Below, piece by piece: positions 29,657 to 35,066 of a stretch of DNA of 64,000 nucleotides. The stretch is from the IMG/VR virus record IMGVR_UViG_3300009509_000013, positions 1-64,000 of that record; one strand, given 5' to 3'. Position 1 is the stretch's first letter; each line of letters begins with the position of its first letter. This DNA comes from a virus. The translations under genes were made by a program, and so were the position numbers. The notes below the pieces were generated by a model. That model did no database searches and was not told the DNA's origin. It was given only the letters and a program-made list of their open reading frames with translations.

Positions 29657-30675
29657 TCACTTCCCCTTTGATGCGCGCTTTATTGCCTCCGCTTCGTCTT
29701 TCTTTTGCTTGTGAAGCCTTTCAATGTACCATTCGCGATCCGACGAACTCATTCCTTGAATGTCGCCGAACGTCATTCCCGGCATACAATAGGTCAACGC
29801 GAACACTTGTTCGCGAAGCTCTTTTGTCGGCGTTACCGGGAAGAACTTGCGAAAAAATCGTCATAGCCCCAATCAAGCGACCGAAGGAACTCGCGCTTAC
29901 ATTTCGGACACTCGCCTTTGATCGACATATCCGGCCCGACCCGATGATCGTCGATCAAGGTCGAAAGCCCTTCAATGTCGCGTTTCGTCATTTCGTCGAG
30001 TTCGTTTCCGCCAAGCGGAATCGAACCAACCCCTTCGAGTTCGTGAATGCTTCCAAGAATCACGCCGATCTTGAAACCGCTTATGTCGTATTGCCCCGAA
30101 ACTTGCATTGTTTCGACGACGTTCCAACGTTGCGGACCAAGCTTCAACGTTTCGACTTTCTTCCCGCGAACTTCAATCGGGGTCGTGAGCTTGTATTTCC
30201 AAAGCGCGTCGGCGAGCTTGCCGACCGTGCGAACGTCGAGCGTCGACAAATCGCCGACGAAATCGAATTCGTTTCGGCACGTCGCGCAAGTGATCCGCAT
30301 TTTGAGATCCGGCCCAAGCGCTTCAACCCGCAACCGCGCGTAAGCGTGAAAAACGTCGGCGGTCCAAGCTTGCGACAAAATGACGCGCCTTTCTTCGAGC
30401 TTCATGTTCTCGAAGTCGTGCTTCCCCCATTTCGTCGCCATTGTGCCAAGAATCATTGCGACATATTCCGGCATTGTCGCGTTCCGGTTTTGATCTCGAA
30501 GCGCTCCGATCTCGCGTTCTTCTTTCATGCGCCAAGCGCGAAAAGAGAAAGCGCGCGGTTCGCCGTCGAAGCCAATCGGAAATTGATTCCCGAACTTGTC
30601 GAGCGTGATCGATTTGACGGTCGCTTCGGTTGAAGCGCCGTTTTCATTCTTGGTTGCTTCTTTGGTATCTTGCAC
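29657..30675 (-). CDS. Predicted -1 frameshift product of the tail assembly gene
   Basis: Slipping back one base at T TTT TTC (29851-29857) after Phe275 joins the T4_baseplate-like protein to an overlapping frame that runs to a TGA at 29657, giving about 339 residues. The extension begins RKFFPVTPTKELREQVF and continues GMTFGDIQGMSSSDREW, with a charged helical end. It resembles the C-terminal part usual in this family after the FF(F)P motif. The extension has no good start of its own. Its stop is two bases before the tape-measure ATG. Confidence 0.68.
29798..29815 (-). promoter_or_regulatory. Hairpin downstream of the slippery site
   Basis: CGCGAACA and TGTTCGCG can form a stem of seven or eight base pairs with a tiny loop. 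It begins about 36 bases after the slippery heptamer, farther than the usual 5-9 bases, so its part in frameshifting is doubtful. Confidence 0.35.
29833..30675 (-). CDS. T4_baseplate-like / tail assembly protein (zero frame)
   Basis: 280 residues. Two Cys pairs, CATC and CPKC, fit the zinc-binding T4 gp26-like baseplate/assembly family, which ends with an aromatic FF(F) motif after the second pair (here DWGYDDFF). The zero frame then adds only ASSSR before TAA. The gene starts at a GTG after GGAGGTGAATC. It is immediately upstream of the tape measure, the standard place for tail assembly chaperones. Confidence 0.75.
   Translation of the reverse strand: MQDTKEATKNENGASTEATVKSITLDKFGNQFPIGFDGEPRAFSFRAWRMKEEREIGALRDQNRNATMPEYVAMILGTMATKWGKHDFENMKLEERRVILSQAWTADVFHAYARLRVEALGPDLKMRITCATCRNEFDFVGDLSTLDVRTVGKLADALWKYKLTTPIEVRGKKVETLKLGPQRWNVVETMQVSGQYDISGFKIGVILGSIHELEGVGSIPLGGNELDEMTKRDIEGLSTLIDDHRVGPDMSIKGECPKCKREFLRSLDWGYDDFFASSSR
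29851..29857 (-). promoter_or_regulatory. Slippery heptamer T TTT TTC (-1 frameshift site)
   Basis: In the zero frame the codons read GAT TTT TTC, giving a canonical X XXY YYZ site with X and Y both T. Slipping back one base enters a frame that is open for another 64 codons and encodes the expected C-terminal part of the family. Confidence 0.65.
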
Positions 30676-30719
30676 GATTCACCTCCAATCGGATCAAGCC
30701 TTGTAAAGCCCAATCGTGC
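30672..30719 (-). promoter_or_regulatory. Long-range stem covering the GTG start at 30675
   Basis: GCACGATT (30712-30719 on the minus strand) can pair with AATCGTGC, which contains the GTG start, across a 32-base loop that holds the GGAGGTG Shine-Dalgarno. This could slow initiation of the tail assembly gene. Seen by eye; stability not calculated. Confidence 0.35.
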
Positions 30720-30736: not shown

Positions 30737-31177
30737 TTAGCCGGGAAGCGGTTCAATGTCGTCCGCCGAAAAACTCCATTCGACTTGTGCGAGTTCGCCG
30801 TCGTTCGCCATTTCGAGATCCGGCAATTTCCGCTTGAACGGCCAAAGACCAACAATCGCGAAGCTCGCAATCGTCGTGCCTTCAATCGACTTGTGGATCA
30901 AAGTCGCCGCCTTTTTGTAGGTCGGCGAAACCGGGTCTTGACCTTCGCGAAGCCAAATTTCCATAGCCGCTTGTTGCGTCCTATGGTGCAACGGAAGCAT
31001 TGCCGTGAATTCTGTCGGCCCGCGATTGCCGCCGCTCGCGACCGTTCGGTCGGGAAGTTGCGTCTTTTGAATCTCGTCTTCAATCCCCGAAATTTCGGTG
31101 AATGTGAAGGTGAGCCCCGGAACCAACAATTCATAATTGTTGACCGGAATGTGATTCGGATCGATTGCGCCTTTCAT
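30737..31177 (-). CDS. Tail tube protein
   Basis: 146 residues from the ATG at 31177 (GGAGGCAAGGAAC before it). It has the T4 gp19/phage_T4_gp19 tube pattern: NHIPVNNYELLVPGL, FTEISGIEDE, a middle with MLPLHHRTQQAAMEIWL and a C-terminal PFKRKLPDLEMANDGELAQ segment. Follows the sheath gene downstream, as usual. Confidence 0.84.
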   Translation of the reverse strand: MKGAIDPNHIPVNNYELLVPGLTFTFTEISGIEDEIQKTQLPDRTVASGGNRGPTEFTAMLPLHHRTQQAAMEIWLREGQDPVSPTYKKAATLIHKSIEGTTIASFAIVGLWPFKRKLPDLEMANDGELAQVEWSFSADDIEPLPG

Positions 31178-31233
31178 GTTCCTTGCCTCCAATCGGGTGA
31201 AGCTTCGCTTTCGGTTAGCTTACTTTGCCCGCG

Positions 31234-31513: not shown

Positions 31514-33796
31514 TTACCCAACGGAATCAAAGATTCCTTGCTTGCCAATGATGATATTGAACCGCTCGACCGTATCGGCCAATCGAAGCTTGATCTCCGC
31601 GAACATATCGCCATTGGCGCGCGTCGCGTCCGTGTTGTTCTCCGCGTCGATCTTGATCTTCGCGGCGTCGTCGAGCTTGTCGCCACGAATGGCGCGCTTG
31701 ACGAACTCCGGTTGAAAGAAGCTTCGAAGCGCCGTGAACGCGAGCTTTTCCGTCACGGGATCGTTGATCATGAACACGATCCAATCGAACGACTCTTGCA
31801 AGACGTGTTCATAATACGACATTTGTTCTCTTTGGTGCTTCCACTTCCAAGCGGGATCGAGCCACAAGGTTCGATCTCCCCAAAGAATGAAGTTCCCGCG
31901 CTTCTTTTTGATCACGTTGATTCCGAGCGGATTCAAGATTTCTTCGTCAAGAATCGCGTCGCCGGTCGGAAGCTTCAAGATCTTCGGAAGCGTCGCTTCG
32001 ATTCCGGCTTGTGCCTTGTGATAGCCGGTGTAATCGTTCGACACGCGAGCTTCGCGCCCTTGGATTTGCCCGGTCAACGGAACAAGCTTCAACTTCCCGT
32101 CCGCGCCGTCGACCGGATCGACAACGTAGCCATAGCTCGGAACACTTACGACCGCGTAATCGTTCCGCCCAAGCGTGTTGTTGATATAGTCGTCGAACTC
32201 GTTTTCGGTGACTTTCGTCGCCGGAACTTCATAGCGGTATTGATGATTCTTCGCCGCCGCGTATGCGACGCCCGCCTTTTGAACCGCCGTCGACGTGACG
32301 CCCGGAGTCGCGAACTTCACAAGCCCCATGTTTTTGTCGGTCAAACGGTTGAAGGGAGAAAGGTCGACGTCCCACAATTGTTGATTGTATTCGGGATCGC
32401 CGACGCCGGCGTTTCCGTCACGTCCGCCGGAAAGCGGAAGCGGAGCTTCAACAAGAAATTCGTCGGCGGGAGCGCCGTCGACCGTCATGTCGGAGCCGTC
32501 CGCAACGGTGATCGATTTGTGATCGTTGTCGACGATTCGGAACTTCACCTTCGCCGCGTTCACCTTGTCGGGATAGCATTTCCCGCCGATCAATTGATCG
32601 GCAACGAAAGGCTTGTAATTCACAACAAGCGTGTCCGCCGCCGCGAGCGGAGTCGCGCCCGCCGTGACTGTGAAAGGCGGCGACCATTTGTTGTTTGGAT
32701 TGAACAACGTTCCAAGCGTGACCGTTCCGAGCGCGCCGAACTTGTCGGAAACCGCGTCGCCGCTTGTCGGCGCGGTCATGGTGATCGTGATCTTTTGCGC
32801 GACCATTTCGTCGGTTGTCGTTCCGAGCGCAAAGGTCGGATTGCCGCCGGCGACCGGGGAATTGATCGTGAAGTCGTGAATCAACGCGGTCAAAACGGTT
32901 GCCGTGACCGTATCGATCACGCCGTAATGATTCGCCGGGCGAACCGCCGGAACATGCGCGCCGGTCCAAAGATCGACGACTTCGATTTCGTCGTTCGCGC
33001 CGTCTTCGTTGATCACGTCGACCCAATAGCGCCCCGACGTCGGATTCGTCGAAAGGTTCGGATATTTCTTCACGAACCGCCCGTCGACGAAGACCGAAAG
33101 CGCGAATTCGGTTGAAGCGTTTTCTTCGCCGTCTTCGATCAAGATCGAAACCGCCTTGTCTTCGTTTTCCATGACAAGGTAATAGCGGAGATCGCCGCCG
33201 CCGCCGTGATCGGTCAGCATGGTTTGATCCGCTTCAACCGTGATCAAGCCCGCCGCCGTGTTCCCAACAATCGGATAGCGCGTGTTCGCGACGGCGGAAA
33301 GCTCGACATAGCCGCCCTTCCATTCGTCTTCTTTGAACGCGCTTGAACCCGTGTCGAGCGTGATTTCGGTCAAGTCGCCGATTGCGCTCAAGTCGTCCGT
33401 GTAGCGCTTCGCCTTGCCGCCCCAACGTCCGCCGTTCTTTGCCTTGACGGTTCCCATTGGAACCAAAAGCGACCCATAGCGCCCGTAAAGCGTCCGCGAC
33501 GCTTGAAGTTCGTTCCCGTCCGTGACTCGAATCAAGACAAGCCCGCCGGCTCCGGCGGCGTTGTCGTAAAAGTCAATGCAAGCGTCGGGAGCGAGCGAGT
33601 CGTCGATATAGCTTCCGAATTTCTTCAAAAAGCTCGACTTGTTCGACAAGCGAACCATTTCGCCGACCGGACCTTTTTCGAAGATCCCGCCGTATCCCGC
33701 CCAACCGAGCGCGCCGGGCTCGATTGTCTTTTCGCCTTCAAGTTCCGTGACGCTTACGCCCGCGCCGCGAATGGGTCCAAATCGCTTTTGTGCCAT
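31514..33796 (-). CDS. Tail sheath protein
   Basis: 760 residues from the ATG at 33796 (GGAGG before it). Phage sheath features: N-terminal FGPIRGAGVSVTELE and TIEPGALGWAGYGGIFEKGP, a long variable insertion (about 120-480), and a conserved C-terminal core (PTGDAILDEEILNPLGINVI, NFILWGDRTL, SFDWIVFMINDP, AIRGDKLDDAAK). It contracts around the tube to drive injection. Longer than minimal sheaths because of the insertion domains. Confidence 0.92.
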   Translation of the reverse strand: MAQKRFGPIRGAGVSVTELEGEKTIEPGALGWAGYGGIFEKGPVGEMVRLSNKSSFLKKFGSYIDDSLAPDACIDFYDNAAGAGGLVLIRVTDGNELQASRTLYGRYGSLLVPMGTVKAKNGGRWGGKAKRYTDDLSAIGDLTEITLDTGSSAFKEDEWKGGYVELSAVANTRYPIVGNTAAGLITVEADQTMLTDHGGGGDLRYYLVMENEDKAVSILIEDGEENASTEFALSVFVDGRFVKKYPNLSTNPTSGRYWVDVINEDGANDEIEVVDLWTGAHVPAVRPANHYGVIDTVTATVLTALIHDFTINSPVAGGNPTFALGTTTDEMVAQKITITMTAPTSGDAVSDKFGALGTVTLGTLFNPNNKWSPPFTVTAGATPLAAADTLVVNYKPFVADQLIGGKCYPDKVNAAKVKFRIVDNDHKSITVADGSDMTVDGAPADEFLVEAPLPLSGGRDGNAGVGDPEYNQQLWDVDLSPFNRLTDKNMGLVKFATPGVTSTAVQKAGVAYAAAKNHQYRYEVPATKVTENEFDDYINNTLGRNDYAVVSVPSYGYVVDPVDGADGKLKLVPLTGQIQGREARVSNDYTGYHKAQAGIEATLPKILKLPTGDAILDEEILNPLGINVIKKKRGNFILWGDRTLWLDPAWKWKHQREQMSYYEHVLQESFDWIVFMINDPVTEKLAFTALRSFFQPEFVKRAIRGDKLDDAAKIKIDAENNTDATRANGDMFAEIKLRLADTVERFNIIIGKQGIFDSVG

Positions 33797-33809
33797 GATT
33801 TCGAGCCTC

Positions 33810-35066
33810 CTACGCTTCAACCGTTGCGTTCATGTTTCCGTCCATGACGAACCGCTTCACACCGAAAATCGGTTTCGAATCTTCAACGAAAAATAGCGCG
33901 TTCTCGATTCGAAAGCGAATTCTGCCAGTGTGAAGGTCGCCGGAGTTCGCCGGGGTCGTCATGTCAAATTCGTCGATAAGGAATAGCCGAAATCTTTCGT
34001 CCATTCCTACAGATTTTATTGTCGGATTGTTGGCGAAAAATCTCTTTATTTCGTCCGCCAACCTTTGATGATCAACGCCTTTATCCGTGATCAAGTGAAG
34101 CAAAACTTCAAGATTTCCTTGAAGGGGAGCGGGAATTTTCCAACCTTCCCCGGTCGCGCGATTCAAAACGTGATCGTCTTGACCGAGCTTCGACGCGCCG
34201 ATCAAGTTTATGTCGTCGAGAATGATCGACGGAACCTTTTCGATCTCCGTGTAGTCTTGCGATGTCGTGACCGCGACTTCCGGTTCATACACAAACCGAA
34301 TGAAAAGCACGTCGCCGGCGGCTTGCGCGCCGGTCAACGTGATCACTTGCGTTCCGACGTCGAACGAATCGAAGACGTCGGTCAAATGCTCCGGGTCGTT
34401 CGTATGGTTGAAGACCGAATCGATCCCGGTCACGTTGTAAGGGGTTTCGAGCTTGTAATCGTTTTTGAGATCGACGGTTGACGCCGCCGCTTCAAGTTGA
34501 ATCATGAAGCGCGAGATCGGTTGAAGCCCGCTTCGAATCAACGGAACAAGCGACCGATAGATCAAGTCGTCTTGAAACTCGATTGTCGATTCATACAAGA
34601 CTTTGACCGCGTAAACGTAAGGGGAAAACGCCGCGTTCGTTGTCTTCAAATTGATCACGACTTGAAGCTTCCGCGCTTGAACGACGCCGGGGAAGAAGCT
34701 CGCAATGTTCGCCGCGACTTCCGCTTCGGTGTTCCAATCGACCGCGTTCACTTCCCAAGTCGACCCGTTCCAAAAATATTCGTCGGTCCCGTCCGAAAGC
34801 CTGAAACCGAGCGACGTCACGACGACGCCGGCTTCGTCTTTGAAGTGATCGGCGATCACTTCGAAGCCGATCCATTGTTGAACGGTCGTCGGGTCCGTGA
34901 CCCAAGTCTTCGCGAAAATGTCCGGGTCGGTCGAGAACGCTTCCCCGGCAAGTTGCAATCGGTTGAAGCCCGACGTCGGATTCAAGCGCGCGCCGGTCCC
35001 TAACACGATTCGCGAACGGTTTTCTTCTTCGAACGCGAACGTCTTGATCAACTTTGTCGTTTTCAT
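33810..35066 (-). CDS. Virion structural protein, unknown
   Basis: 418 residues from the ATG at 35066, which overlaps the preceding stop (ATGA). Mostly beta-rich, with a WNGSTWEVNAVDW turn and a late helical part (HQRLADEIKRFFANNPTI). It sits between tail-completion and sheath genes. A tail-terminator or sheath-associated role is possible by position but not shown by motif. Confidence 0.6.
   Translation of the reverse strand: MKTTKLIKTFAFEEENRSRIVLGTGARLNPTSGFNRLQLAGEAFSTDPDIFAKTWVTDPTTVQQWIGFEVIADHFKDEAGVVVTSLGFRLSDGTDEYFWNGSTWEVNAVDWNTEAEVAANIASFFPGVVQARKLQVVINLKTTNAAFSPYVYAVKVLYESTIEFQDDLIYRSLVPLIRSGLQPISRFMIQLEAAASTVDLKNDYKLETPYNVTGIDSVFNHTNDPEHLTDVFDSFDVGTQVITLTGAQAAGDVLFIRFVYEPEVAVTTSQDYTEIEKVPSIILDDINLIGASKLGQDDHVLNRATGEGWKIPAPLQGNLEVLLHLITDKGVDHQRLADEIKRFFANNPTIKSVGMDERFRLFLIDEFDMTTPANSGDLHTGRIRFRIENALFFVEDSKPIFGVKRFVMDGNMNATVEA

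Follow-up and report, generated by a model that had tools for sequence, protein, structure and literature searches.

A probable programmed -1 frameshift in the T4 gp26-like tail assembly chaperone gene of an IMG/VR virus and of distant phages

In a 74 kb IMG/VR virus, the gene that precedes the tape measure gene ends shortly after two phenylalanine codons on a run of T, beyond which a second reading frame stays open almost to the start of the tape measure gene, and the question is whether the two frames encode two forms of one protein. The stretch analysed here (hereafter, the window) comprises 64,000 nucleotides of this record. The minus-strand genes follow one another in the order sheath, small ORF, probable tube, the gene in question, tape measure, and then hub and spike genes (Table 1); the presence of a sheath implies a contractile tail. 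The preliminary description had assigned the gene to the tail chaperone position upstream of the tape measure, and this is where it lies, between the tube (a weak sequence call) and the tape measure; the homologous gene of phage SP-15 is likewise located between tube and tape measure. We consider it very probable that the gene encodes a tail assembly chaperone which is made in a short form of 280 aa and a long form of 339 aa by programmed -1 frameshifting, like lambda G/GT.

Table 1. Coordinates of the chaperone gene, its frameshift elements and its neighbours in the window
Feature	Position	Strand	Remarks
Probable short tail assembly chaperone (TAC-N), 0-frame ORF	29833..30675	-	280 aa, GTG start, TAA 29835-29833
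Slippery heptamer T TTT TTC	29851..29857	-	in frame; NNT TTT TTY in 63/63 non-redundant relatives
-1 frame C-terminal extension	29657..29857	-	TGA 29659-29657; predicted frameshift product 339 aa
Candidate stimulator, stem-loop 3' of the heptamer	29772..29846	-	folding energy, clade-wide and chimera tests
GGGG, weak Shine-Dalgarno-like candidate stimulator	29867..29870	-	9 nt 5' of the heptamer
Ribosome binding site (GGAGG) for the chaperone gene	30682..30686	-	read from the sequence
Tape measure protein, 865 aa	27058..29655	-	PF10145 E 8e-43; PHROG 1533 E 4e-86
Probable tail tube protein (gp19-like)	30737..31192	-	PF06841 E 0.019 (weak), position and length
Tail sheath	31514..33820	-	PHROG 23 E 9e-28

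The 0 frame ends in GAC GAT TTT TTC GCA AGT TCT TCC CGG TAA, and re-reading of the sequence places the heptamer T TTT TTC at the position and in the frame originally reported for it. Past the heptamer, the -1 frame reads RKFFPVTPTKELREQVF... and is open for 64 codons, as translation to its TGA confirmed; the gap between this TGA and the tape-measure ATG (29655) is one base, not two as initially described. None of the first 17 codons of the extension is a start codon, so that the conserved block of the extension, FFRxFFP...E, which is located ahead of any start codon, is accessible only from upstream. The gene accordingly displays a putative slippery site in frame near its 3' end together with a conserved extension in another frame, the sequence signature of a frameshifted gene.

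By both profile and fold, the product of this gene is a T4 gp26-like protein (PF12322/PHROG 150), which bears out the original T4_baseplate/gp26-like identification. The 280-aa product matches PHROG 150 (baseplate hub) with E 2.4e-7 and, weakly, PF12322 (T4_baseplate; E 1.1e-4, score 22.4 against a cut-off of 24.5), and PF12322 matches 9/9 window-clade members in alignment A2 (best E 1.5e-11); the extension matches PHROGs 20255 and 35657, both of unknown function. The AlphaFold model of the short form (mean pLDDT 82.9) resembles gp26-like viral proteins: a Foldseek comparison with BFVD retrieved a baseplate protein of Myoviridae ctgXL3 (E 1e-13) and the SP-15 hub (E 9e-11), and a fold search of the PDB with the same model matched no solved structure. 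A tblastn search of 50,697 phage records with the window protein gave no match, a single-protein scan of IMG/VR found no relatives, and two scans of bacterial and archaeal genomes yielded no relative and, therefore, no evidence of a prophage; there was no match in Rfam and nothing useful in NCBIfam.

Relatives were gathered stepwise, first through the tape measure and then through alignments, the extension-only alignment being too variable to serve as a search query. After reduction to less than 80% protein identity, the non-redundant set consists of 63 loci, namely 33 from the window clade, 21 from cyanophages and T4-like phages, and 9 from jumbo phages, all of which (63/63) contain an in-frame NNT TTT TTY followed by an open -1 extension. 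Wherever the sequence of a window-clade locus is complete, a homologous extension lies in the -1 frame, with Phe-Phe on T TTT TTY near the end of the 0 frame. The same arrangement is found in the jumbo phages 121Q, RaK2, GAP32, Munch, XacN1, BF, Vibrio 2.275.O, Atu_ph07 and Cassandra, in the cyanophages S-RIM50 and Sf-FS3, in Stenotrophomonas phage Ps15 and Vibrio phage PG216, and in 82/82 readable loci among further cyanophages and jumbo phages. Conservation of the heptamer and the extension exceeds chance: given the codon usage of the individual loci, the joint probability is 10^-36.9 for the 33 window-clade loci and 10^-49 for all 63, and only 5 of the 112 other Phe-Phe sites in these loci fit the pattern. 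The codon ahead of Phe-Phe is of ten kinds (AGT, AAT, GAT, TCT, GGT, CGT, CAT, GCT, GTT and TAT), and despite this diversity, its third base is T without exception. Comparison of extension profiles gave 97.0 for the window clade and the jumbo clade and 90.2 for the window and T4-like clades; the T4-like and jumbo profiles match each other poorly (8.9), and the link between these two groups hence runs via the window clade and the shared position. Judging from these sequences, the -1 arrangement is conserved across very distant phage groups. One further observation comes from a hub relative in a 595 kb uncultured phage (L085, 2117-3390), which has an extension-like ORF in the -1 frame and no T-run heptamer at the end of the 0 frame.

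Downstream of the heptamer, the window sequence can fold into a stem-loop in which arms 29846-29834 and 29784-29772 enclose a hairpin (29815-29809/29804-29798); the structure begins 4 nt past the heptamer, with the main stem starting 8 nt past it, and its folding energy of -31.4 kcal/mol (z -3.85) was equaled in 0/200 shuffles. In the 33 members of the window clade, the 44-nt segment starting 4 bases after the site has a mean z of -2.02 compared to -0.30 for in-gene controls (p 1.6e-8, a value that overstates the independence of the cases because the members are related). The 3' arm of the stem lies at differing distances among these members, and when the 3' halves were swapped between them, the mean energy changed from -13.7 for the native combinations to between -10.3 and -10.4 for the chimeric ones (p 7e-7, with the independence of these related cases again overstated). 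Because swapping weakens the fold, the stem arms appear to match each other within each genome. The stem-loop is a candidate stimulator that would probably help slippage. We also considered an upstream Shine-Dalgarno-like element. In the window clade, the mean upstream anti-SD energy is -4.9, against -2.6 for the remainder of the gene (mean rank 0.22), which is partly forced by a conserved Trp codon; cyanophages show the element clearly and the window clade moderately, and jumbo phages lack it. We rejected such an element as a general stimulator given its absence in jumbo phages, its lack of strictness and the partial codon effect.

The same observations bear on three other explanations of the two-frame layout. 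Homopolymers are prone to sequencing error and the window is a single record from a virus collection, so the true run might comprise seven T within a single ORF; however, the two-frame layout is present in the 63 non-redundant relatives, which come from many assemblies, with fused frames in none of them (0/63), and it is also found in the cultured phages 121Q, RaK2, GAP32, S-RIM50 and PG216. This recurrence without fusion disposes of sequencing or assembly error, which is refuted for the family as a whole and which we regard as extremely improbable for the window. Fused frames were one of two contrary signs that the preliminary description had anticipated, the other being homologs in which the extension is a separate gene with its own start, and no self-standing gene of this kind exists among the window-clade relatives. 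Re-initiation after the TAA, with the extension translated as a small protein of its own, could draw on the annotation of cyanophage copies as a separate small "gp51", but is hardly credible in view of the start codons of the window extension, which are preceded by 17 codons and the FFRxFFP block, and of the fusion of the extension domain within T4 gp51.

Transcriptional slippage is the least improbable of the three and still very unlikely. T runs can make the polymerase slip, and one extra base in some of the mRNAs would open the same frame and yield the same long protein. However, the run is exactly six T followed by C in 60/63 relatives, with seven T in the remaining three, whereas a polymerase-based mechanism would favor longer runs; furthermore, such a mechanism does not need the conserved stem-loop a few bases downstream. 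The programmed -1 frameshift that was originally proposed is supported by the heptamer, the open -1 frame, the 63/63 conservation and the predicted stem.

From the sequence anatomy, conservation, homology and predicted structure, we infer that slippage takes place, how efficient it is, what the stem contributes and what the products bind. Under the frameshifting scenario, the majority of the ribosomes would terminate after 280 aa, producing the short form; a minority would slip back by one base while decoding Phe-Phe on T TTT TTC, probably aided by the downstream stem-loop, and append the 64-residue C-terminal domain, so that the long form reaches 339 aa. If the lambda model applies, the tape measure protein would be coated by the short form, and the long form, which is rarer, would bring tail-tube subunits to the tape measure. 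The likeness to the lambda gpG/gpGT chaperones (Xu, Hendrix and Duda 2004; reviewed in PMC5009743) involves a gene ahead of the tape measure, a low-level -1 slip near the 3' end and a C-terminally extended minor form; lambda is a siphovirus whereas the window belongs to a myovirus, and no sequence relationship is claimed. In haloviruses HF1/HF2, the tail chaperones are likewise encoded by a pair of overlapping CDS lying between the tube and tape measure genes (PMC7230728), and there, unlike in the window, a +1 shift on TTT-CGC has been proposed; the likeness considered here is one of gene arrangement.

The T4-like chaperones and the window protein belong to the same PF12322 family, even though the 74 kb window record is far smaller than the T4-like genomes, and T TTT TTC is present in the cyanophages, the vibriophage and the Stenotrophomonas phage as it is in the window. 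T4 itself differs: gp26 terminates at the equivalent Phe-Phe, there is no slippery site, and a separate gp51 is present. In profile alignments, T4 gp26 is confined to the part before the shift (to column 251 of 315), whereas T4 gp51 extends over the frameshift product in full (7-249 of 249 on 13-300); its end-to-end alignment with the frameshift products of the relatives in cyanophages, the vibriophage and the Stenotrophomonas phage has a probability of 98.8-99.0, and gp26 and gp51 align with each other at 98.3. Against the extension profiles, the C-terminus of gp51 scores 96.4 for T4-like phages and 92.1 for the window clade, with reversed-profile controls below 1. Compared directly, the window clade and T4 gp26 match weakly (probability 48), the link resting on the intermediates gp51 (94.6) and frameshifted T4-like relatives (99.0). 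These alignments suggest that T4 gp26 is the short form and gp51 the long form, encoded by separate paralogous genes; T4 (L098), 44RR (L155) and Klebsiella phage Prick1 (L153) all lack the slippery site and appear to encode the long form in a paralogous gene of its own.

The tail-chaperone frameshift has been reviewed as conserved "except T4" (PMC5009743). Two papers trace the T4-like tail chaperones to Vladimirov, Gautam and Davidson 2022 (doi 10.1016/j.virol.2021.11.003): the PRFect paper credits them with the finding that some T4-like phages have a short and a fused long copy and no frameshifting (PMC10885494), and the Adele paper with poly-T slippery signals in T4-like short-form chaperone genes (PMC12846349). 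The preliminary statement that frameshifting is not commonly described for gp26-like proteins is therefore out of date, going by these two accounts of the 2022 identification. Frameshifting would also explain why cyanophage gp51 is without the first ~200 residues, as reported by Sullivan et al. 2010 (PMC3037559). In two cyanophage loci, the annotated "gp51 baseplate hub assembly catalyst" (L150, 2235-2372; L151, 2199-2390) corresponds to only the later part of the extension, annotated as a gene of its own.

The least expected part of the findings is the direction of the shift in a sister clade. In SP-15 and its relatives (26 non-redundant; loci L082 4217-5156, L083, L084 and L240-L271), the same Phe-Phe also marks the switch to the homologous chaperone extension, which here occupies the +1 (or -2) frame. 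The commonest 0-frame codons at the site are TTY TTT CGT; the Arg codon is CGN in 18/18 cases (background 24%) and CGT in 14/18 (background 14%, p 2.4e-9). UUU_CGN is cited as a +1 motif of influenza A, amalgaviruses and similar cases among eukaryotic viruses (PMC7230728). Frame and motif together suggest that this clade shifts +1, usually on UUU_CGU, with -2 as the alternative. On balance, and with some reserve, we favor the view that one homologous family shifts in opposite directions at the same Phe-Phe, the window, T4-like and jumbo clades by -1 on U_UUU_UUY and the SP-15 clade by +1. Some +1 members (L259, L262-L264 and L268) have a different site, TTA TTT AAT CCC AGT AAG or CTA TTC AAT CCC AGT, which suggests another slip motif. 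Three loci reached with the SP-15 profile (L272-L274) are of the -1 type with T TTT TTY.

A frameshifted tail chaperone is a known kind of gene and largely ordinary; the present analysis documents it in the window clade as well as in jumbo phages, puts numbers on its conservation and adds the stem-loop, and the 2022 paper may already cover part of this. In the phage records examined, the extension is left out or called a hypothetical gene or "gp51", and because it is omitted or annotated separately, the long chaperone is missing from these annotations; the T TTT TTY signal offers a simple annotation rule for cyanophages, jumbo phages and the window clade. T4 would be a case of two genes standing in for frameshifting, in line with the 2022 report as credited in the later papers. 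If the opposite shifts are real, this chaperone family would have switched the direction of frameshifting without moving the site or losing either product.
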